DNA of 64,000 nt from Lampris incognitus (taxonomy: Eukaryota; Chordata; Actinopteri; Lampriformes; Lampridae), in the NCBI RefSeq assembly GCF_029633865.1, contig NC_079230.1, forward strand, positions 30,205,388-30,269,387, written 5' to 3'. The translations under genes and the position numbers were made by a program. The notes below the pieces were generated by a model. It did no database searches, was not told the origin of the DNA, and saw only the letters and a program-made list of their open reading frames with translations. Below are positions 813 to 59,635 of the stretch, piece after piece; position 1 is the first letter of the stretch; each line of letters opens with the position of its first letter.

Positions 813-1474
813 ATAATTGATACCTACTGATTTGCCGCTGTATTCCTGGTCGCACCCTGGGTGGTGCTGGGACGAGAGTCCGGTCGTGAGGCAGTGCGTC
901 TCACACTGCCGTTACATCACCCGTCTCCGACTTACACTCATGCATTCACTCTGGCGTCTCGAACTCGGCCTCCGCCGCTACATTTTCCCAGGCTTCATGG
1001 CGACGCCTCCTGCAAGACCTCCACAAAGACTGTTTTATGTCATCCACACATGCTTGGCCTTTTCTCATCTCTTTGCTCCTCTCAGAAGTCAGAATAAAGA
1101 GCCTTCACCAGGGTTTACTGACATAAGTCCAGCTTTACAGGGAGAGCAGACAGGCTGGAGTAAGATGTTGGACATCCTAGCAGGCCTGCCACTGGAAACA
1201 GATTTAAAGACGTGTGGGACAGATTTATCGCGTTTTTAAAAGATTCCCACAAGCTGGATATGTCATTATCTTAGAGCCACAGGACAGTCAAACATTTTGC
1301 TCTCGATACGTCTCGCTTGGTGTTGAGGTCAAAGCTGAACACATTAAGAAAGACCGACATCAGGAAGGGAAAGCACAGCACCAACTGATCTTTGAAGAGG
1401 ACGTTTTCACAGCAGGCGTTTCTTTGCAGCCGTTAACATCTGCAGGCTCCTCCCAGCCAGGCCAGTCTGCTCAT
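813..1474. other. Stretch with no recognised feature
   Basis: Mixed-composition sequence between the retroposon and the 9-bp array. Short open frames here have no recognisable domain or splice context. Confidence 0.5.
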
Positions 1475-4400
1475 CTCACATCAATCACATCAGTCACATC
1501 AATGACATCAGTCACATCAATCACATCAGTAACATCAATCACATCAGTCACATCAATCACATCAGTCACATCAGTCACATCATCACATCAATCACATCAG
1601 TCACATCATCACATCAGTCACATCATCACATCAGTCACATCAATGACATCAATCACATCAGGCACATCAATCACATCAGTCACATCAATCACATCATCAC
1701 ATCAGTCACGTCAGTCACATCAATCACATCAGTTACATCAGTCACAACAATCACATCGGTCACATCAGTCACAACAATCACATCAGTCACAGCAATCACA
1801 TCAGTCACGTCAATCACATCGGTCACATCAGTCACATCAACCACATCAATCGCATCAGTCACATCAGTCACATCATCACATCAGTCACATCAATCACATC
1901 ATCACAGCAGTCACATCAATCACATCAGTCACATCAATCACATCAGTCACAACAATCACATCAATCACATCAGTCACATCAGTCACAACAATCACATCGG
2001 TCACATCAGCCACATCAGTCACATCGGTCACAACAATCACATCAGTCACATCAATCACATCAGTCACATCGGTCACAACAATCACATCAGTCACATCAAT
2101 CACATCAGTCACATCAGTCACAACAATCACATCAATCACATCAGTCACATCGGTCACATCAGCCACATCAATCACATCGGTCACAACAATCACATCAGTC
2201 ACAACAATCACATCAGTCACATCAATCGCATCAGTCACATCAGTCACAACAATCACATCAGTCACACCACTCACATCAGTCACAACAATCACATCAGTCA
2301 CATCAGTCACATCAGTCACAACAATCACATCAGTCACAACAATCACATCAGTCGCATCAGTCATATCAGTCACATCAATCACATCAGTCACAGCAATCGC
2401 ATCAGTCACATCAGTCACATCAATCACATCAGTCACAACAATTACATCAGTCACATCAGTCACATCAGTCACAACAATCACATCAGTCGCATCAGTCACA
2501 TCAATCACATCAGTCACAACAATCGCATCAGTCACATCAGTCACATCAGTCACAACAATCGCATCAGTCACATCAGTCACATCAATCACATCAGTCACAA
2601 CAATCACATCAGTCACATCAGTCACATCCATCACTTCAGTCACATCAATCACAACAGTCACAACAGTCACATCAGTCATAACAATCACATCAGTCACATC
2701 AGTCACAACAATCACATCAGTCGCATCAGTCACATCAGTCACAACAATCACATCAGTCACATCAGTCACAACAATCACATCAGTCGCATCAGTCATATCA
2801 GTCACATCAATCACATCAGTCACAACAATCGCATCAGTCACATCAGTCACATCAATCACATCAGTCACAACAATCACATCAGTCACATCAATCACATCAG
2901 TCACAACAGTCACATCAGTCACAACAATCACATCAGTCACATCAGTCACATCAGTCACAACAATCGCATCAGTCACATCAGTCACATCAATCACATCAGT
3001 CACAACAATCACATCAGTCACATCAGTCACATCCATCACTTCAGTCACATCAATCACATCAGTCACAACAGTCACATCAGTCATAACAATCACATCAGTC
3101 ATATCAGTCACAACAATCACATCAGTCGCATCAGTCACAACAATCACATCAGTCACATCAGTCACAACAATCACATCAGTCGCATCAGTCATATCAGTCA
3201 CATCAATCACATCAGTCACAACAATCACATCAGTCACATCAGTCACAACAATCACATGAGTCACAACAATCGCATCAGTCACATCAGTCACATCAGTCAC
3301 AACAATCACATCAGTCACATCAATCACATCAGTCACATCAATCACATCAGTCACAACAGTCACAACAATCACATCAGTCACATCAGTCACAACAATCACA
3401 TCAGTCACATCAGTCACAACAATCACGTCGGTCACATCAGTCACAACAATCACATCAGTCACATCAGTCACATCGGTCACAACAATCACATCAGTCACAA
3501 CAATCACATCAGTCACAACAATCACATCAGTCACAACAATCACATCAGTCACATCAATCACATCAGTCACATCAATCACATCAGTCACAACAGTCACATC
3601 AATCACATCAGTCACATCAATCACATCAGTCACATCAATCGCATCAGTCACATCAATCACATCAGTCACATCAGTCACAACAGTCACATCAGTCACAACA
3701 ATCACATCAGTCACATCAGTCGAAACAATCACATCGGTCACATCAGTCACATCAGTCACAACAATCACATCGGTCACATCAATCACATCAGTCACATCAG
3801 TCACAACAATCACATCAATCACATCAGTCACATCAGTCACAACAATCACATCAGTCACAACAATCACACCAGTCACATCGGTCACAACAATCACATCAAT
3901 CACATCAGTCACATCAGTCACAACAATCACATCAGTCACATCAGTCACAACAATCACATCAGTCACATCATTCACATCAGTCACGTCAGTCACATCAATC
4001 GCATCAGTCACATCAATCACATCAGTCACATCAGTCACAACAGTCACATCAGTCACAACAATCACATCCATCACATCAATCACATCAGTCACATCAGTCA
4101 CAACAATCACATCAGTCACATCAGTCACAACAATCACATCAGTCACATCAATCACATCAGTCACATCAGTCACAACAGTCGCATCAGTCACATCAATCGC
4201 ATCAGTCACATCAATCGGATCAGTCACATCAGTCACAACAATCACATCAGTCACAACAGTCACATCAATCACATCAGTCACATCAATCACATCAGTCACA
4301 TCAATCGCATCAGTCACATCAATCACATCAGTCACATCAGTCACAACAGTCACATCAGTCACAACAATCACATCAGTCACATCAGTCGAAACAATCACAT

Positions 4401-6268
4401 CGGTCACATCAGTCACATCAGTCAAAACAATCACATCGGTCACATCAATCACATCAGTCACATCAGTCACAACAATCACATCGGTCACATCAATCACATC
4501 AGTCACATCAGTCACAACAATCACATCAGTCACAACAATCACACCAGTCACATCGGTCACAACAATCACATCGGTCACAACAATCACATCAATCACATCA
4601 GTCACATCAGTCACAACAATCACATCAGTCACATCAGTCACAACAATCACATCAGTCACATCATTCACATCAGTCACGTCAGTCACATCAATCGCATCAG
4701 TCACATCAATCACATCAGTCACATCAGTCACAACAGTCACATCAGTCACAACAATCACATCCATCACATCAATCACATCAGTCACATCAGTCACAACAAT
4801 CACATCAGTCACATCAGTCACAACAATCACATCAGTCACATCAATCACATCAGTCACATCAGTCACAACAGTCGCATCAGTCACATCAATCGCATCAGTC
4901 ACATCAATCGGATCAGTCACATCAGTCACAACAATCACATCAGTCGCATCAGTCATATCAGTCACATCAATCACATCAGTCACAACAATCACATCAGTCA
5001 CATCAGTCACAACAATCACATGAGTCACAACAATCGCATCAGTCACATCAGTCACATCAGTCACAACAATCACATCAGTCACATCAATCACATCAGTCAC
5101 AACAGTCACAACAATCACATCAGTCACATCAGTCACAACAATCACATCAGTCACATCAGTCACAACAATCACGTCGGTCACATCAGTCACAACAATCACA
5201 TCAGTCACATCAGTCACATCGGTCACAACAATCACATCAGTCACATCAGTCACAACAATCACATCAGTCACAACAATCACATCAGTCACAACAATCACAT
5301 CAGTCACATCAATCACATCAGTCACATCAATCACATCAGTCACAACAGTCACATCAATCACATCAGTCACATCAATCACATCAGTCACATCAATCGCATC
5401 AGTCACATCAATCACATCAGTCACATCAGTCACAACAGTCACATCAGTCACAACAATCACATCAGTCACATCAGTCGAAACAATCACATCGGTCACATCA
5501 GTCACATCAGTCACAACAATCACATCGGTCACATCAATCACATCAGTCACATCAGTCACAACAATCACATCGGTCACATCAATCACATCAGTCACATCAG
5601 TCACAACAATCACATCAGTCACAACAATCACACCAGTCACATCGGTCACAACAATCACATCAATCACATCAGTCACATCAGTCACAACAATCACATCAGT
5701 CACATCAGTCACAACAATCACATCAGTCACATCATTCACATCAGTCACGTCAGTCACATCAATCGCATCAGTCACATCAATCACATCAGTCACATCAGTC
5801 ACAACAGTCACATCAGTCACAACAATCACATCCATCACATCAATCACATCAGTCACATCAGTCACAACAATCACATCAGTCACAACAATCACATCAGTCA
5901 CATCAATCACATCAGTCACATCAGTCTCATCAGTCACAACAGTCGCATCAGTCACATCAATCGCATCAGTCACATCAATCGGATCAGTCACATCAATCAC
6001 ATCAGTCACATCAGTCACAACAGTCACATCAGTCACAACAATCACATCCATCACATCAATCACATCAGTCACATCAGTCACAACAATCACATCAGTCACA
6101 TCAGTCACAACAATCACATCAGTCACATCAATCACATCAGTCACATCAGTCACATCAGTCACAACAGTCGCATCAGTCACATCAATGACATCAGTCACAT
6201 CAATCACATCAGTCACATCAGTCACATCAGTCACAACAATCACATCAGTCACATCAGTCACAACAATC
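1475..6268 (+). repeat. 9-bp minisatellite, ~530 units, with higher-order duplications
   Basis: The array is built from 9-mers of the type TCACATCAG, TCACATCAA, TCACAACAA and TCACATCGG. Blocks of variant units recur in the same order. For example the GTCGAAACAATC variant occurs near 3720, 4385 and 5475, the CATTCACATCAGTCACGTC block near 3965, 4662 and 5735, and the CACATGAGTCACAAC block near 3253 and 5020. This indicates segmental duplications of roughly 0.7, 1.1 and 1.8 kb on top of the 9-bp period. Because 9 is a multiple of 3, several frames on both strands stay open for hundreds of codons. These are not genes. Confidence 0.97.
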
Positions 6269-6351
6269 CTCCCTGCATCACAGTGTGGCGGTGTTACTCT
6301 GTCAATTAGTCAACTGTTCAGACAGACTAATTGGCTTTAATAGGTAGCAGG

Positions 6352-17790: not shown

Positions 17791-20700
17791 CTACGACAGA
17801 GAGAGAAGAGGAGAAAAAGAGAGATGACAGCTGGTATATGCACTGACAGTCCAAATGAGGGTTTGATCCCGGTGACCATTAGCGCTGACTTGACCAAAAG
17901 TTACAGCACTGGGGTCAAACACGCCTTTAAGTCTGCCGACAGCCACTAACCACACAACCATCACGTGACAGAACACTCGGACCAGACAACCTGGACCTGA
18001 ACCTGAACAGTCAGGAAACTTTAAGCAATAACTAGAGGGAACTACGTAGGGTGTTGTGCTCCATGCAGGACAAGAAGGTCTAACATACACCGTAAAGCTG
18101 ACCTGTTCTGATGAATATGAAGGCAGTGTAGGCTCCAAACACGGCTGTGTAGGAAAACTGGAACACTGTGGTGAAAGAGAGCAACACGGCCCACCATCAA
18201 GCTCTTCCCCGGCATGTTCAACCAGTCCCATCATGAATGTTTGAATAGGCCGTATGGATTTTTACCTGCTGAAAGGAAGATCCCCGACATGGTCCCCTGT
18301 CTGAAGCGCAGCAGCTCAATCACATGGTGGAAGTGGGCTGCAAGGACAGCAACGCTGTTATTAGAGCCGCATCACGCAAATACTGGTTCTTACTTTAGTT
18401 TTTCTATGGGAGAGGGCAAAACAGGTAGTCCAGATAGGAGCATCAAACCCAACCAACTTCTGCTAGTTCTGTCACGACAACAGCCACCACAACACATTTT
18501 CACTGGCTTGGGTCACAAGCGGTGAGACCCAAGTCCTCATTCTGTCCATACCTGGGATTAAAACTGCCTGACCGACTAAAGAGTCTCACCTACTCCAAAA
18601 AAGAGTGGGCAGGTGAAGATGGCGGTTGAAGGGCTGGCGCAGGGCACCAACATGGGTAGCATGCAGGCTCGGAACACCAGCTCCTCAGTCAGCGGCGCCA
18701 CCACCTGGTTTCTCAGCCAGCGCATGTCACTGAAGCACAACGTCCAGAACCAGGGGTCTGCAGGATGGACAGCAGGGACACAAAGCTAGTTAGGGGAAAG
18801 GACTAAGCCCTTTCTTTCTTCTTTTTTGTTTTTTTTTTTCTGTGCTGATCCGGGGAGGGCTGCAGACTACCACATGCCTCCTCCCATACATGTGGAGTCA
18901 CCAGCCGCTTCTTTTCACCTGACAGTGAGGAGTTTCACCAGGGGGACGTAGCGCGTGGGAGGAACACACTATTCCCCCCAGTTTCCCCTTCCCCCCGGAA
19001 CAGGCACCCCGACTGACCAGAGGAGGCGCTAGTGCAGCGACCAGGACACATACCCACATCCGGCTTCCCACCCACAGACACGGCCAATTGTGTCTGTAGG
19101 GACGCCCGACCAAGCCGGAGGTAACACGGGGATTCGAATTGGCGATCCCCATGTTGGTAGGCAACAGAATAGACCGCCACGCCACCCGGACGCCCGACTA
19201 ATCCCTTTGTGACTCAACACAAAACTGGCTCTGTCTTTTCCTATATCTCTGACAAAGACGCATTCAACTTGTATACATTTAAATTTACACATTTGTAAAG
19301 CAGTAGAGGTCCGGGAAAAGTTGTTCAGTGTAAAACTGCAAAAGTAGGCCTCCGGGTGGCGTGGCGGTCTATTCTGTTGCCTACCAACACGGGAATCCCG
19401 GTTCAAATCCCCGTGTTACCTCCGGCTCAGTCGGACATTCCTACAGATACAATTGGCCATGTCTACAGGTGGGAGGCCAGATATGTGTCCTGGCTGATTC
19501 ACTAGCGCCTCCTCTGGTTGGTCGAGATGCCTGTCCGGGGGGGTGGCAGCGTGATCTTCCCACACGCTACGTCCCCCTGGTGAAACTCCTCACTGTCAGG
19601 TGAAAAGAAGCGGCTGGCGACTCCACATGTATGGGAGGAGGCATGTGGTAGTCTGCAGCCCTCCCCGGATCAGCAGAAGGGGTGGAGCAGCGGGGGTGGA
19701 GCAGAGCGGGTAAAGCAGAAGGGGTGGAGCAGAGCGGGTGGAGCAGAGACTTACTATTTAAACCGGCTCATTATTTAAATTGGAATACTTGCAAAATAGC
19801 TTTCATATTTGCTCCGTGCAGCCCAGATGGATAATCCAAAAAAAAATCTCTTTCCATTTTCTTCCATTGTGCAGTGAAGCGCCTCAAATTCACACGTGTA
19901 GCACACAAATAAACACGCACAGAGTGACTTCTGCCCCAATACCAAATCAAGACCCCCTTCGTTCCTGTTTTTCATGCTAATTTAACGCGTGAAATTTAGA
20001 AGTTAGCTCGCTAGCATGCTATGAGAGACATATTCACTTTTACCATAACTGTAAACACCCCAAAACATGACTGACAGGGCTGGTAATTATATATATAATT
20101 ATATACACTACCGTTCAAAAGTTTGGGATCACATTGAAATGTCCATATTTTTGAAGGAAAAGCACTGTATTTTTCAATGAAGATAACTTTAAACTAGTCT
20201 TAACTTTAAAGAAATACACTCTATACATTGCTAATGTGGTAAATGACTATTCTAGCTGCAAATGTCTGGTTTTTGGTGCAATATCTACATAGGTGTATAG
20301 AGGCCCATTTCAAGCAACTATCACTCCAGTGTTCTAATGGTACAATGTGTTTGCTCATTGGCTCAGAAGGCTAATTGATGATTAGAAAACCCTTGTGCAA
20401 TCATGTTCACACATCTGAAAACAGTTTAGCTCGTTACAGAAGCTACAAAACTGACCTTCCTTTGAGCAGATTGAGTTTCTGGAGCATCACATTTGTGGGG
20501 TCAATTAAACGCTCAAAATGGCCAGAAAAAGAGAACTTTCATCTGAAACTCGACAGTCTATTCTTGTTCTTAGAAATGAAGGCTATTCCATGCGAGAAAT
20601 TGCTAAGAAATTGAAGATTTCCTACACCGGTGTGTACTACTCCCTTCAGAGGACAGCACAAACAGGCTCTAACCAGAGTAGAAAAAGAAGTGGGAGGCCG

Positions 20701-21720
20701 CGTTGCACAACTGAGCAAGAAGATAAGTACATTAGAGTCTCTAGTTTGAGAAACAGACGCCTCACAGGTCCCCAACTGGCATCTTCATTAAATAGTACCC
20801 GCAAAACACCAGTGTCAACATCTACAGTGAAGAGGCGGCTGCGGGATTCTGGGCTTCAGGGCAGAGTGGCAAAGAAAAAGCCATATCTGAGACTGACCAA
20901 TAAAAGAAAAAGATTAAGATGGGCAAAAGAACACAGACATTGGACAGAGGAAGACTGGAAAAAAGTGTTGTGGACGGATGAATCCAAGTTTGAGGTGTTT
21001 GGATCACAAAGAAGAACGTTTGTGAGACGCAGAACAAATGAAAAGATGCTGGAAGAATGCCTGACGCCATCTGTTAAGCATGGTGGAGGTAATGTGATGG
21101 TCTGGGGTTGCTTTGGTGCTGGTAAGGTGGGAGATTTGTACAGGGTAAAAGGGATTCTGAATAAGGAAGGCTATCACTCCATTTTGCAACGCCATGCCAT
21201 ACCCAGTGGACAGCGCTTGATTGGAGCCAATTTCATCCTACAACAGGACAATGACCCTAAACACACCTCCAAATTTTGCAAGAACTATTTAGAGCAGAAG
21301 CAGGCAGCTGGTATTCTATCGGTAATGGAGTGGCCAGCGCAGTCACCAGATCTGAACCCCATTGAGCTGTTGTGGGAGCAGCTTGACCGTATGGTACGCA
21401 AGAAGTGCCCATCCAACCAATCCAACTTGTGGGAGCTGCTTCTGGAAGCGTGGGGTGCAATTTCTCCAGATTACCTCAACAAATTAACAGCTAGAATGCC
21501 AAAGGTCTGCAATGCTGTAATTGCTGCAAATGGAGGATTCTTTGACGAAAGCAAAGTTTGATGTAAAAAAAATCTTATTTCAAATACAAATCATTATTTC
21601 TAACCTTGTCAATGTCTTGACTCTATTTTCTATTCATTTCACAACATATGGTGGTGAATAAGTGTGACTTTTCATGGAAAACACAAAATTGTTTGGGTGA
21701 TCCCAAACTTTTGAACGGTA

Positions 21721-54892: not shown

Positions 54893-55656
54893 TAAATGCA
54901 TGCTATTCTGCACCACAGTCTATTGTCACTGTCGGAGAACGCCCGCCCTACCCCATACCCCCACGTTTCCATCGCCTCCCATTAAGTCGTCCCTTCTCTT
55001 TTCCTCGTGTACCTCTTTCCCCGGCCTCCCCTGAGTCTACTCCCCCCACCCCACCCCTGCAGCACTGAACCCGCTCCACCCTCCATCCCCTCATATCAAG
55101 CCAAGGCATGGATAGCTGGGGGGGGGGATGAAATGACTGAGTCTGCTGCCAGCCATCCGTCATCTGATTATGAGAACATTTTCTCCTCATCGGGGTCCAG
55201 ATTTAATAAAACCTGGTATCGGACATCAGTTGACTTCTGGGTAAGGTAGTCCAGTATGGGTCAGCGCCTGCTTTGCGGGAGCGTCGCTCCGAGGCGTTGG
55301 GAAAACAAGGCAGGCAGGACGGGAGGGTTTCGAAATCACGATAACGTGTTCACCGGCATCGTGTTTGTGTTTCTAAGACTGTTATCTAATCTCCACAAAG
55401 AGAGAACAAAGCTTGTGAGGGGGGTTGTCATGCTTTTGCACCACTTGTTTTCCACCGTGTAGGTGGTCTCGCCCACTTTTGATTAATAATAGGTTTGAGT
55501 ATCAAGGCACCGGCTTAAAACCTGTGCGCCTCTCTGCCGATGGAGGCCCGGGATTCAGGGCTGTTTTTCTTCTGTAAAACGGCTCATGTCAAAATATCTA
55601 CATAAACACGGTGAGTCAGACGTGGCAGAAAGGAGCCAACTGTTTTCACATAGTAG
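53875..55656. other. Probable PELI3 intron; (GTT)n at 54853-54891
   Basis: Pyrimidine-rich stretches at 54140-54330 and 54480-54560, CA/CCCA runs, and a GTT trinucleotide repeat. No exon recognised. Confidence 0.45.
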
Positions 55657-58144
55657 TGTAACCGGTTATATTGTTGCCCGGTGCGGGATTCGATACGGGG
55701 TGTACCGCACCACAAGGCGACCTCACTAACCGCTCGGCTAAAGGGTCAGACCCGTTAGTCAGACCCGTTAGCTAGGGGCTAACGTGTCTTATTAGTAGTT
55801 TACAATCGTCACCCTCTCCCGGAAGCGCGCCCTCTGTTCTTCCCGCGCTCCGAAGAGACTTCTGAGGATCTGCACAGTTCCGGATCCCACCGCTGCCACC
55901 AATGTAAGCGGTTATTTTCTTGCCCGGTGCGGGATTTGATACGGGTGTACTGCACCACAAGGCCACATCACTAACCGCTCGGCTAAAGGGTCAGACCCAT
56001 TAGCTAGGGGCTAACGTGTCTAGTTAGTAGTTTACAGTCGTCACCCTCCCCGGAAGCGCGCCCTCGCGCTTTGTTCTTCCCGCGCTCCGAAGAGACTTCT
56101 GAGGATCTGCACACTTCCGGATCCCACCGCTGCCACCAATGTAAGCGGTTATTTTCTTGCCCGGTGCGGGATTCGATACGGGTGTACTGCAGCACAAGGC
56201 GACCTCACTAACCGCTCGGCTAAAGGGTCAGACTCGTTAGCTAGCGGCTAACATGTCTAATTAGTAGTTTACAGTCGTCACCCTCCACCGGAAGCGCGCC
56301 CTCGTGCTTTGTTCTTCCCGCGCTCCGAAGAGACTTCTGAGGATCTGCACACTTCCGGATCCCACCGCTGCCACCAATGTAACCGGTTATTTTCTTGCCC
56401 GGTGCGGGATTCGATACGGGTGTACTGCAGCACAAGGCGACATCACTAACCGCTCGGCTAAAGGGTCAGACTCGTTAGCTAGGGGCTAACGTGTCTAGTT
56501 AGTAGTTTACAGTCGTCACCCTCCCCGGAAGCGCGCCCTCGCGCTTTGTTCTTCCCGCGCTCCGAAGAGACTTCTGAGGATCTGCACACTTCCGGATCCC
56601 ACCTCTGCCACCAATGTAAGCGGTTATTTTCTTGCCCGGTGCGGGATTCGATACGGGGTCTACTGCACCACAAGGCGACATCGCTAACCGCTCGGCTAAA
56701 GGGTCAGACCCGTTAGCTAGGGGCTAACGTGTCTTATTAGTAGATTACAGTATGCTTATGTAATCGGTTATTTTCTTGCCCGGTGCGGGATTCGATACGG
56801 GTGTACTGCAGCACAAGGCGACCTCACTAACCGCTCGGCTAAAGGGTCAGACTCGTTAGCTAGCGGCTAACATGTCTAATTAGTAGTTTACAGTCGTCAC
56901 CCTCCACCGGAAGCGCGCCCTCGTGCTTTGTTCTTCCCGCGCTCCGAAGAGACTTCTGAGGATCTGCACACTTCCGGATCCCACCGCTGCCACCAATGTA
57001 ACCGGTTATTTTCTTGCCCGGTGCGGGATTTGATACGGGTGTACTGCAGCACAAGGCGACATCACTAACCGCTCGGCTAAAGGGTCAGACTCGTTAGCTA
57101 GGGGCTAACGTGTCTAGTTAGTAGTTTACAGTCGTCACCCTCCCCGGAAGCGCGCCCTCGCGCTTTGTTCTTCCCGCGCTCCGAAGAGACTTCTGAGGAT
57201 CTGCACACTTCCGGATCCCACCGCTGCCACCAATGTAAGCGGTTATTTTCTTGCCCGGTGCGGGATTCGATACGGGGTCTACTGCACCACAAGGCGACAT
57301 CGCTAACCGCTCGGCTAAAGGGTCAGACCCGTTAGCTAGGGGCTAACGTGTCTTATTAGTAGATTACAGTATGCTTATGTAATCGGTTATTTTCTTGCCC
57401 GGTGCGGGATTCGATACGGGTGTACTGCAGCACAAGGCGACCTCACTAACCGCTCGGCTAAAGGGTCAGACTCGTTAGCTAGCGGCTAACATGTCTAATT
57501 AGTAGTTTACAGTCGTCACCCTCCACCGGAAGCGCGCCCTCGTGCTTTGTTCTTCCCGCGCTCCGAAGAGACTTCTGAGGATCTGCACACTTCCGGATCC
57601 CACCGCTGCCACCAATGTAACCGGTTATTTTCTTGCCCGGTGCGGGATTTGATACGGGTGTACTGCAGCACAAGGCGACATCACTAACCGCTCGGCTAAA
57701 GGGTCAGACTCGTTAGCTAGGGGCTAACGTGTCTAGTTGGTAGTTTACAGTCGTCACCCTCCCCGGAAGCGCGCCGTCGCGCTTTGTTCTTCCCGCGCTC
57801 CGAAGAGACTTCTGAGGATCTGCACACTTCCGGATCCCACCGCTGCCACCAATGTAAGCGGTTATTTTCTTGCCCGGTGCGGGATTCGATACGGGGTCTA
57901 CTGCACCACAAGGCGACATCGCTAACCGCTCGGCTAAAGGGTCAGACCCGTTAGCTAGGGGCTAACGTGTCTTATTAGTAGATTACAGTATGCTTATGTA
58001 ATCGGTTATTTTCTTGCCCGGTGCGGGATTCGATACGGGGTGTACTGCACCACAAGGCGACCTCGCTAACCGCTCGGCTAAAGGGTCAGACCCGTTAGTC
58101 AGACCCGTTAGCTAGGGGCTAACGTGTCTAATTAGTCGTTTACA
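55657..58144 (-). mobile_element. Tandem array of a miniature LTR retrotransposon (TRIM-like)
   Basis: Repeats of ~133-148 bp with TGT...ACA ends (TGTAACCGGTTAT to TAGTTTACA on the plus strand) alternate with a 98-bp internal segment or a 9-bp spacer (GTATGCTTA). On the minus strand the segment after each LTR begins, after one base, with TGGTGGCAGCGGTGGGAT, complementary to the 3' end of tRNA-Leu(AAG) as I recall it: a primer-binding site (for example 55884-55901). The array is bounded by the 4-bp duplication GTAG (55653-55656, 58145-58148). A G-rich GGGGAGGG lies close to the other LTR edge, as a polypurine tract would. No gag or pol. Confidence 0.8.
56148..58004 (-). repeat. 619-bp higher-order repeat within the LTR array
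   Basis: The junction AGTATGCTTATGTAATCGG recurs at about 56749, 57368 and 57987, exactly 619 bp apart. Each period contains two LTR-plus-internal units (~238 bp) and one LTR-plus-spacer unit (~141 bp). Confidence 0.93.
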
Positions 58145-58179
58145 GTAGTGTAACGTGCATGGATTAGTAGACACGCTGG

Positions 58180-58312
58180 GCGCAGGCTGGCGGGTCTGAC
58201 CCTTTAGTCGAGCGGATAGCGATCTCTCCTGCGGTGCGGGCGATACGGGTTCGCCTCCCGGCCGCGGCAGTTCCAGTGGTTGCGTTGTCCCCCCGAATTC
58301 GCTACATACAGT
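58180..58312 (+). mobile_element. tRNA-like SINE head next to the LTR array
   Basis: GACCCTTTAGTCGAGCGGATAG (A-box like) and CGGGTTCGCCTCCCGG (B box) with normal spacing, followed by GCCGCGGCAGTTCC. It resembles, in opposite orientation, the tRNA-like stretch inside the array LTRs. Confidence 0.6.
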
Positions 58313-58769
58313 ATTCTTATTTATTGTCAATTAAAACACTAATGGTGTGGAATGCAGTCTCACAGTATTGCGGATTTCTCTGAAGATTGTATGGATGGCT
58401 GTAGAAGCTTGAGGGGGACGTGCACGCTTCTTACCTTTAGCCTGCCTGCCTGGAGCTTATTTCCCAGCACCGCTTGCCAGCGCTCCGACAGAAGCTCGTG
58501 TCATCATCGCAGTAAGATGATGGAGCGCTAACGGGGGCAGGGGTGCAGGTTTCTGTTTATCTGCCTTTGTGGGGGGAAAAGCCTTATTACTTTTACTGAT
58601 CCAATCCAATTGGCTGGGCCGGGGGGCTCAGCAAATATCCTGGGTCAGCAAGCCAAAAGCACTTCAGTCAAGGACCATGAAAATTACCAGAAGAGCAAAC
58701 GTCAGAAAGTCACTCTGGCCACCGAGGCAGTGGCTGAGTGATGAGGCGCATCCTGCCCATTGTTCCCGA
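58313..58769. other. Probable PELI3 intron, nothing recognised
   Basis: Unique-looking stretch. Confidence 0.4.
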
Positions 58770-59635
58770 ACCTGTTAATGTATGAGTCTGTTATGACTTA
58801 TGAATCTGTTAATGTATAACTCTGTTATGAATATGTTCGCTGTATGACTCTGTTAGCTGTATTAATCTGTTAGCTGTATGAATCTGTTAGCTGTATGAAT
58901 GTGTTAGCTGTATGAATGTGTTAGCTGTTTGACTCTGTTAGCTTTATGAATCTGTTAGCTGTATTAATGTGTTAGCTGTTTGGATCTGTTGGCTGTATGA
59001 ATCTGTTAGCTGTATTAATGTGTTAGCTGTTTGGATCTGTTGGCTGTATGAATGTGTTAGCTGTATGAATCTGTTAGCTGTTTGGATCTGTTAGCTGTAT
59101 GAATGTGTTAGCTGTTTGGATCTGTTAGCTGTATGAATGTGGTAGCTGTTTGGATCTGTTGGCTGTATGAATCTGTTAGCTGTTTGGATCTGTTAGCTGT
59201 ATGAATGTGGTAGCTGTTTGGATCCATTAGGTGTATGAATCTGTTAGCTGTTTGGATCTGTTGGCTGTATGAATGCGTTAGCTGTATGAATGTGTTAGCT
59301 GTGTGGATTTGTTGGCTGTATGAATCTGTTAGCTGTTTGGAACTGTTGGCTGTATGAATGCGTTAGCTGTATGAATGTGTTAGCTGTTTGGATCTGTTGG
59401 CTGTATGAACGCGTAGGCTGTATGAGTCTGTTAGCTGTGTGGATCTGTTGGCTGTATGAATCTGTTAGCTGTATGAATGTATTAGCTGTTTGGATCTGTT
59501 GGCTGTATGAATGTGTTAGCTGTATGAATCTGTTAGCTGTATGAATTTGTTAGCTGTTTGACTCTGTTAGCTGTAGCTGTTGGACTCTGTTAGCTGTTTG
59601 ACTCTTTTAGCTGTTTGACTCGGTTAGCTGTTTGG
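58770..59635 (+). repeat. 17-bp minisatellite, ~50 units
   Basis: Unit GTTAGCTGTATGAATCT alternating with GTTAGCTGTTTGGATCT and variants. It ends about 315 bp before the PELI3 exon. Confidence 0.97.

Follow-up and report, generated by a model that had tools for sequence, protein, structure and literature searches.

The array at positions 55657-58144 of the window (the whole stretch of 64,000 nucleotides of Lampris incognitus DNA that was analysed) is very probably a Helenus-type TRIM, a non-autonomous LTR element with a unit of about 370 bp, which was lengthened after insertion by unequal crossover between its LTRs. The sense strand of the array is the minus strand, and the array consists of 12 LTRs, 8 internal segments and three 9-bp spacers. 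It is flanked by the target-site duplication GTAG at 55653-55656 on the left and 58145-58148 on the right, where an earlier note, made from the sequence alone, had placed it. The same note described LTR-like repeats of about 140 bp with TGT...ACA ends and an internal segment of 98 bp; the ends were borne out (the LTRs start with TGTAA and end with TTACA on either strand), whereas the LTR lengths are corrected to 134-148 bp (n = 12) and 98 bp is the length of one internal segment only, the other seven measuring 103-104 bp. The LTR-internal-LTR unit is given as about 372 bp.

Along the minus strand, LTR 12 (57997-58144, 148 bp), which forms the sense 5' end, is followed by a spacer (57988-57996), LTR 11 (57853-57987), internal 8 (57750-57852; primer-binding site, PBS, 57834-57851), LTR 10 (57616-57749), internal 7 (57512-57615; PBS 57597-57614) and LTR 9 (57378-57511). 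There follow a second spacer (57369-57377), LTR 8 (57234-57368), internal 6 (57131-57233; PBS 57215-57232), LTR 7 (56997-57130), internal 5 (56893-56996; PBS 56978-56995) and LTR 6 (56759-56892). The remainder comprises the third spacer (56750-56758), LTR 5 (56615-56749), internal 4 (56512-56614; PBS 56596-56613), LTR 4 (56378-56511), internal 3 (56274-56377; PBS 56359-56376), LTR 3 (56140-56273), internal 2 (56037-56139; PBS 56121-56138), LTR 2 (55903-56036), the 98-bp internal 1 (55805-55902; PBS 55884-55901) and LTR 1 (55657-55804, 148 bp), the sense 3' end.

In all 8 internal segments, read along the minus strand, a single base separates the LTR from an 18-mer PBS; the PBS is perfect in 7, and that of internal 4 has one mismatch to the others. 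We take this 18-mer to be the complement of the 3' end of tRNA-Leu plus CCA. A PBS after each LTR, as previously described, is true of 8 of the 12 LTRs; after three others come a 9-bp spacer and another LTR, and the last is the 3' end. No open frame of at least 110 amino acids overlaps the array, in agreement with the lack of coding capacity noted before. The candidate polypurine tract on the sense strand, GGGGAGGG, is short and stands 7 bases away from the LTR.

Several features of the locus had been overlooked at first reading: the LTR-9 bp-LTR junctions, a higher-order period of 619 bp, a 13-bp duplication, tRNA-like A and B boxes, and an adjoining second LTR. At the three junctions, two LTRs are parted by GTATGCTTA (on the plus strand), which replaces an internal segment. 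An exact 19-mer spanning the 9-bp junction and the LTR ends occurs 3 times in the 1.48-Gb genome, always inside the array, and the idea that the junction is a feature of the mobile family was rejected, its exact form being confined to this locus. The junctions belong to three 619-bp blocks on the minus strand (56140-56758, 56759-57377 and 57378-57996; together 56140-57996), which differ pairwise at 2, 3 and 5 of 619 positions. Since the difference between separate LTR types of the array is larger, at 5-10 of about 135 positions, the multiplication of the blocks appears to be the youngest layer. A point against the explanation preferred here is that the LTR types of the array are no closer to one another than each is to its nearest LTR in other places.

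LTRs 6, 9 and 12, each beside a 9-bp spacer, carry a T that was found in only 1 of 147 other LTRs; apart from this shared T, LTRs 6 and 9 follow LTR 3. We therefore read LTRs 6 and 9 as hybrids, with the left end on the plus strand like LTR 12 and the remainder like LTR 3. On the basis of this one site, they are what would be expected from an exchange between LTR 12 and LTR 3 that yielded the 619-bp blocks. The 13-bp duplication is present in the outermost LTRs 1 and 12 and absent from the ten inner ones. An exact 40-mer around it occurs twice in the genome, both times in the array, and in the alignment most columns of the duplication are filled in only 1 of the 147 other LTRs.

Directly after the right-hand GTAG begins an LTR of a second, related tRNA-bearing family, here called family B (58149-58306, plus strand; TGTAACGTG...TTCGCTACA), with an A and a B box on the plus strand. 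No internal segment was seen at this LTR, and its own right flank is TACA, with no repeat of GTAG. Because it starts right after GTAG, the match between the flanks of the array seems to be 10 bp long (GTAGTGTAAC); a 10-bp target duplication was rejected, as the six additional bases already belong to the family B LTR, at its start. None of 1000 shuffles gave a box pair as good as that of this LTR, and it is about 73-87% identical to LTRs of the array family over most matches of 40-75 bases around the A box. Full-length relatives were found in L021 (92%) and L043 (89%). Two further relatives share 66-68% (L012) and about 77% (L040) identity with it; in both, nearby LTR ends are followed by TGGTGTCAGAAGTGGGAT, which presumably fits another tRNA-Leu. 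At L040:2107-2700 a family B relative has inverted tRNA-like arms that form a long foldback; Rfam matched it to MIR8670 and VA RNA below the gathering cut-offs, probably owing to the hairpin.

As to the wider surroundings, no exon was found by eye beside the array, and a Pfam search of 10 open reading frames of the window found no host gene, only one Tc1-type transposase (open frame 20509-21561, domains HTH_Tnp_Tc3_2 and DDE_3) and two Zn-ribbon matches below the cut-off. A tandem repeat of 17/34 bp, GAATCTGTTAGCTGTAT, occupies 58768-59000 and reaches the end of the scanned stretch. At 1208-6309 several very long open frames overlap one another, with both strands represented, perhaps in a tandem repeat; the one searched with Pfam, 3087-6188, gave no match.

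The genome was queried with the whole array, which gave 48 matching rows, including the array itself and its neighbour, from the best 40 of 6109 first-look candidates. Among these best 40, the remaining 39 scored places lie elsewhere, dispersed over many contigs. Chance falls far short of accounting for such a pattern. We fetched 40 stretches, 39 around these places and one extending an array on C13, and retained 35 chains with at least one internal segment and both outer LTR ends (34 of them have at least two internals, and one is a plain LTR-internal-LTR), while 6 were dropped for missing ends. This sample is non-random and favours long arrays like that of the window, so that the ratio of single to multiple copies is outside its reach. 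The edges of the copies elsewhere coincide with LTR ends. A perfect 4-bp target duplication flanks 20 of the 35 copies, against 42 of 1190 cross-locus pairs used as a control; 7 of the 15 others match at 3 of 4 positions, and duplications of 3, 5 or 6 bp were found in none of the 35. The 20 perfect duplications comprise four of CTAG, two of CTAC and 14 further sequences seen a single time. According to the earlier note, an ordinary satellite would be indicated if all genomic copies lacked target duplications, or if copy edges elsewhere fell off the LTR boundary; the copies turned out the other way, and the TRIM identity it proposed is supported by LTR ends at the copy edges together with the 4-bp duplications. 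L010 and L051 (about C13:48584700-48588800) hold a longer array of the same family with the junctions LTR-TTAC-LTR and LTR-TTACTGCACA-LTR, apparently an independent higher-order expansion. Next to the C13 array lies a stretch whose open frames resemble those of Gypsy by eye; it gave no lead, and a tRNA-Leu-like PBS is absent from it.

In the LTR alignment the A box is perfect in all 12 LTRs of the array, and for the B box two mismatches are seen in 9 of them and three in LTRs 2, 7 and 10. On the PBS strand the boxes are 44 bases apart in LTR 1 (A box 55730-55740, B box 55686-55696) and 43 in LTR 4 (56450-56460 and 56407-56417). For each of these two LTRs, the two tested, none of 1000 dinucleotide shuffles of the PBS strand gave a box pair as good, whereas on the antisense strand of LTR 4 757 of 1000 did. 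Against this, the box columns are not singled out by conservation within the family (A box rank 46 and B box rank 69 of 125 LTR windows). Rfam gave no match of any kind in the array up to an E value of 5, ARAGORN found no tRNA gene in the whole window, and scans with Rfam and ARAGORN (8 fetched loci in one, 40 in another) found none within LTRs, as is expected if the promoter alone was kept. ARAGORN made two calls in the 40 loci, both outside LTRs: one in L028 with no assigned type, and one at L046:757-838, a good tRNA-Ser(CGA) gene of 65.6 bits between copies of both families. Judged from the boxes, the LTRs of the array carry a tRNA-like promoter of pol III type, which pol III would presumably use.

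The name Helenus was given in 2024 to TRIMs whose LTR contains a tRNA-like sequence (Kojima, PMC10886601). According to passages of that paper, Helenus units are 311-1263 bp long, make 4-bp duplications in animals and have, in vertebrates, a PBS to tRNA-His, Leu or Lys; pol III transcription is not demonstrated in those passages. They also describe LTR-11_DR of zebrafish, which has 5575 LTRs and forms tandem arrays, and whose relatives occur in three orders of Ostariophysi. By its A and B boxes and its 4-bp duplication the family of the array belongs to Helenus, and it is likened to LTR-11_DR by description, not by sequence: both have a short LTR-internal-LTR unit, A and B boxes in the LTR, a tRNA PBS, 4-bp duplications and tandem arrays. 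In contrast, the locus-private higher-order block and 9-bp junction are features of the array described here, and the parts of PMC10886601 consulted are silent on how arrays form. The suggestion that such an array might be undescribed is not supported, since tRNA-bearing fish TRIMs and the zebrafish LTR-11_DR arrays are in print (PMC10886601), as are TRIM arrays of plants (PMC7215508 and PMC4528315, in the parts seen).

Suppose that an inserted element is lengthened when the 3' LTR of one copy crosses over with the 5' LTR of a second copy. The middle LTR of a three-LTR array is then a hybrid, which is predicted to have few private changes and to resemble the 3' LTR in its left part and the 5' LTR in its right part. 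We examined this in 26 three-LTR arrays with complete segments, leaving out four longer arrays and any whose segments are incomplete. Private substitutions numbered 81 in the 5' LTRs, 65 in the middle LTRs and 128 in the 3' LTRs (64, 51 and 86, respectively, in the arrays with a target duplication). The middle LTR was below the mean of the outer ones in 19 arrays and above it in 7 (Wilcoxon p 0.012). L046 alone contributed 19 of the 128 3'-private changes; with it omitted, a binomial test of the middle share still gave p 0.0005, although the counts are clustered by array. The 5'-private changes lay to the left of 3'-private ones in 232 of 372 pairs (permutation p 0.008). In six arrays with no middle-private change, a subset picked after the polarity test of the full set, 56 of 63 pairs were polarised (p 0.00025); five of the six have countable pairs, L022 having none, and L016 gave 0 of 2. 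The clearest case is L035: its four sites private to the 5' LTR all come before the eight private to the 3' LTR, and its internals do not differ. These patterns are new evidence that supports, at the level of the family, array growth after insertion by unequal LTR-LTR crossover.

The course of events that we propose would begin with a transcript started at the tRNA-derived pol III promoter in the LTR and reverse transcribed from a tRNA-Leu primer; a borrowed Gypsy-type enzyme may then have carried out the integration that gave the 4-bp duplication. The element would have inserted at a GTAG site directly beside the sister-family LTR, although either of the two could have been first. The array would then have been lengthened stepwise as LTRs on sister or homologous chromosomes crossed over unequally; one event may have left the 9-bp LTR-LTR junction, and later LTR-LTR exchanges could have multiplied the junction-carrying 619-bp block to three copies. 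The unequal LTR recombination that the earlier note inferred finds backing in the low number of private substitutions in middle LTRs, in the polarity of the outer differences and in the hybrid LTRs of the array, with one reservation, the 13-bp duplication confined to the outer LTRs. As simple crossover should transmit this duplication, one loss must be assumed: one inner LTR may have lost it early, for example when a crossover inside the duplication took place out of register.

The reservation leads to the main alternative, that the element was already multimeric when it inserted, through template switching or read-through of an array in reverse transcription; its outer LTRs would have been renewed from one template, the inner ones would have kept the differences of the parent array, and only the 619-bp block would have multiplied later. 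The 13-bp duplication with its locus-private 40-mer, common to the first and last LTRs and missing from the ten inner ones, is what this account would explain. The six-LTR array L009 likewise has 2 sites at which the outer LTRs agree against all inner ones, while L011, L012 and L015, also with more than three LTRs, have none of this kind. Neither TTTT nor AATAAA/ATTAAA, which might stop a transcript, occurs in the whole 2488-bp sense strand, a weak point as the unit is short and repeated, and template switching has been proposed for TRIM arrays (in passages of PMC7215508). On the other hand, middle LTRs throughout the family have fewer private substitutions rather than more, and the outer differences are polarised as crossover predicts. 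Moreover, what comes after the first sense LTR is a 9-bp spacer, whereas a direct product of reverse transcription should have a PBS there. Given the family-wide test and this missing PBS, we favour early loss of the duplication from an inner LTR and consider insertion as a multimer unlikely. A further version, to which the outer-only duplication also lends itself, takes the multi-LTR array itself as the mobile unit: with no terminator inside it, it would yield a full-length transcript, from which reverse transcription would make a multimer; this would insert again with newly matched outer LTRs and then be multiplied locally. This, too, seems improbable to us.

A reading of the repeats as tRNA-derived SINEs, arrayed in tandem and mobilised by a LINE, with no LTR element involved, is suggested by the tRNA-like boxes inside them, but the PBS, the TG...CA ends and the two direct terminal repeats per unit speak against this, and the fixed 4-bp duplications contradict LINE-type insertion; we rejected this reading as very improbable. 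An ordinary satellite with accidental LTR-like ends would account for the tandem arrangement and the higher-order period, but its probability is negligible in view of the dispersal on many contigs, the copy edges at the LTR boundary, the correctly placed PBS and, decisively, the 4-bp duplications (20/35 versus 42/1190).

Growth by unequal LTR crossover, the reading we prefer, has been weighed for other LTR elements. The plant TRIM Cassandra has a pol III promoter in its LTR and forms arrays of alternating LTRs and internals with up to 12 repeats, for which recombination and template switching are called not mutually exclusive in passages of PMC7215508; it differs in that its promoter is derived from 5S rRNA and its LTR holds terminators, whereas the array described here is tRNA-like and has no TTTT on the sense strand. 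Three-, four-, six- and seven-LTR arrays among 89 intact elements of Wukong, a maize TRIM, were ascribed to unequal crossing over (PMC4528315); Wukong is a plant family, and the passages concerned mention no tRNA promoter. In rice, tandem LTR retrotransposons, apparently not TRIMs and in this unlike the present array, share internal LTRs and are flanked by target duplications, and in the passages seen the authors could not decide between complex or tandem insertion and recombination (PMC11899658).

How small LTR elements come to form tandem arrays is treated as an open question in parts of PMC7215508 and PMC11899658. In the literature on tandem LTR and TRIM arrays, surveyed in part, we noticed no use of breakpoints in middle LTRs to decide it. 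Where one genome holds many short arrays of one family, as here, LTR breakpoints can tell the two models apart, and the current sample, drawn from the best 40 of 6109 candidates, favours growth after insertion.
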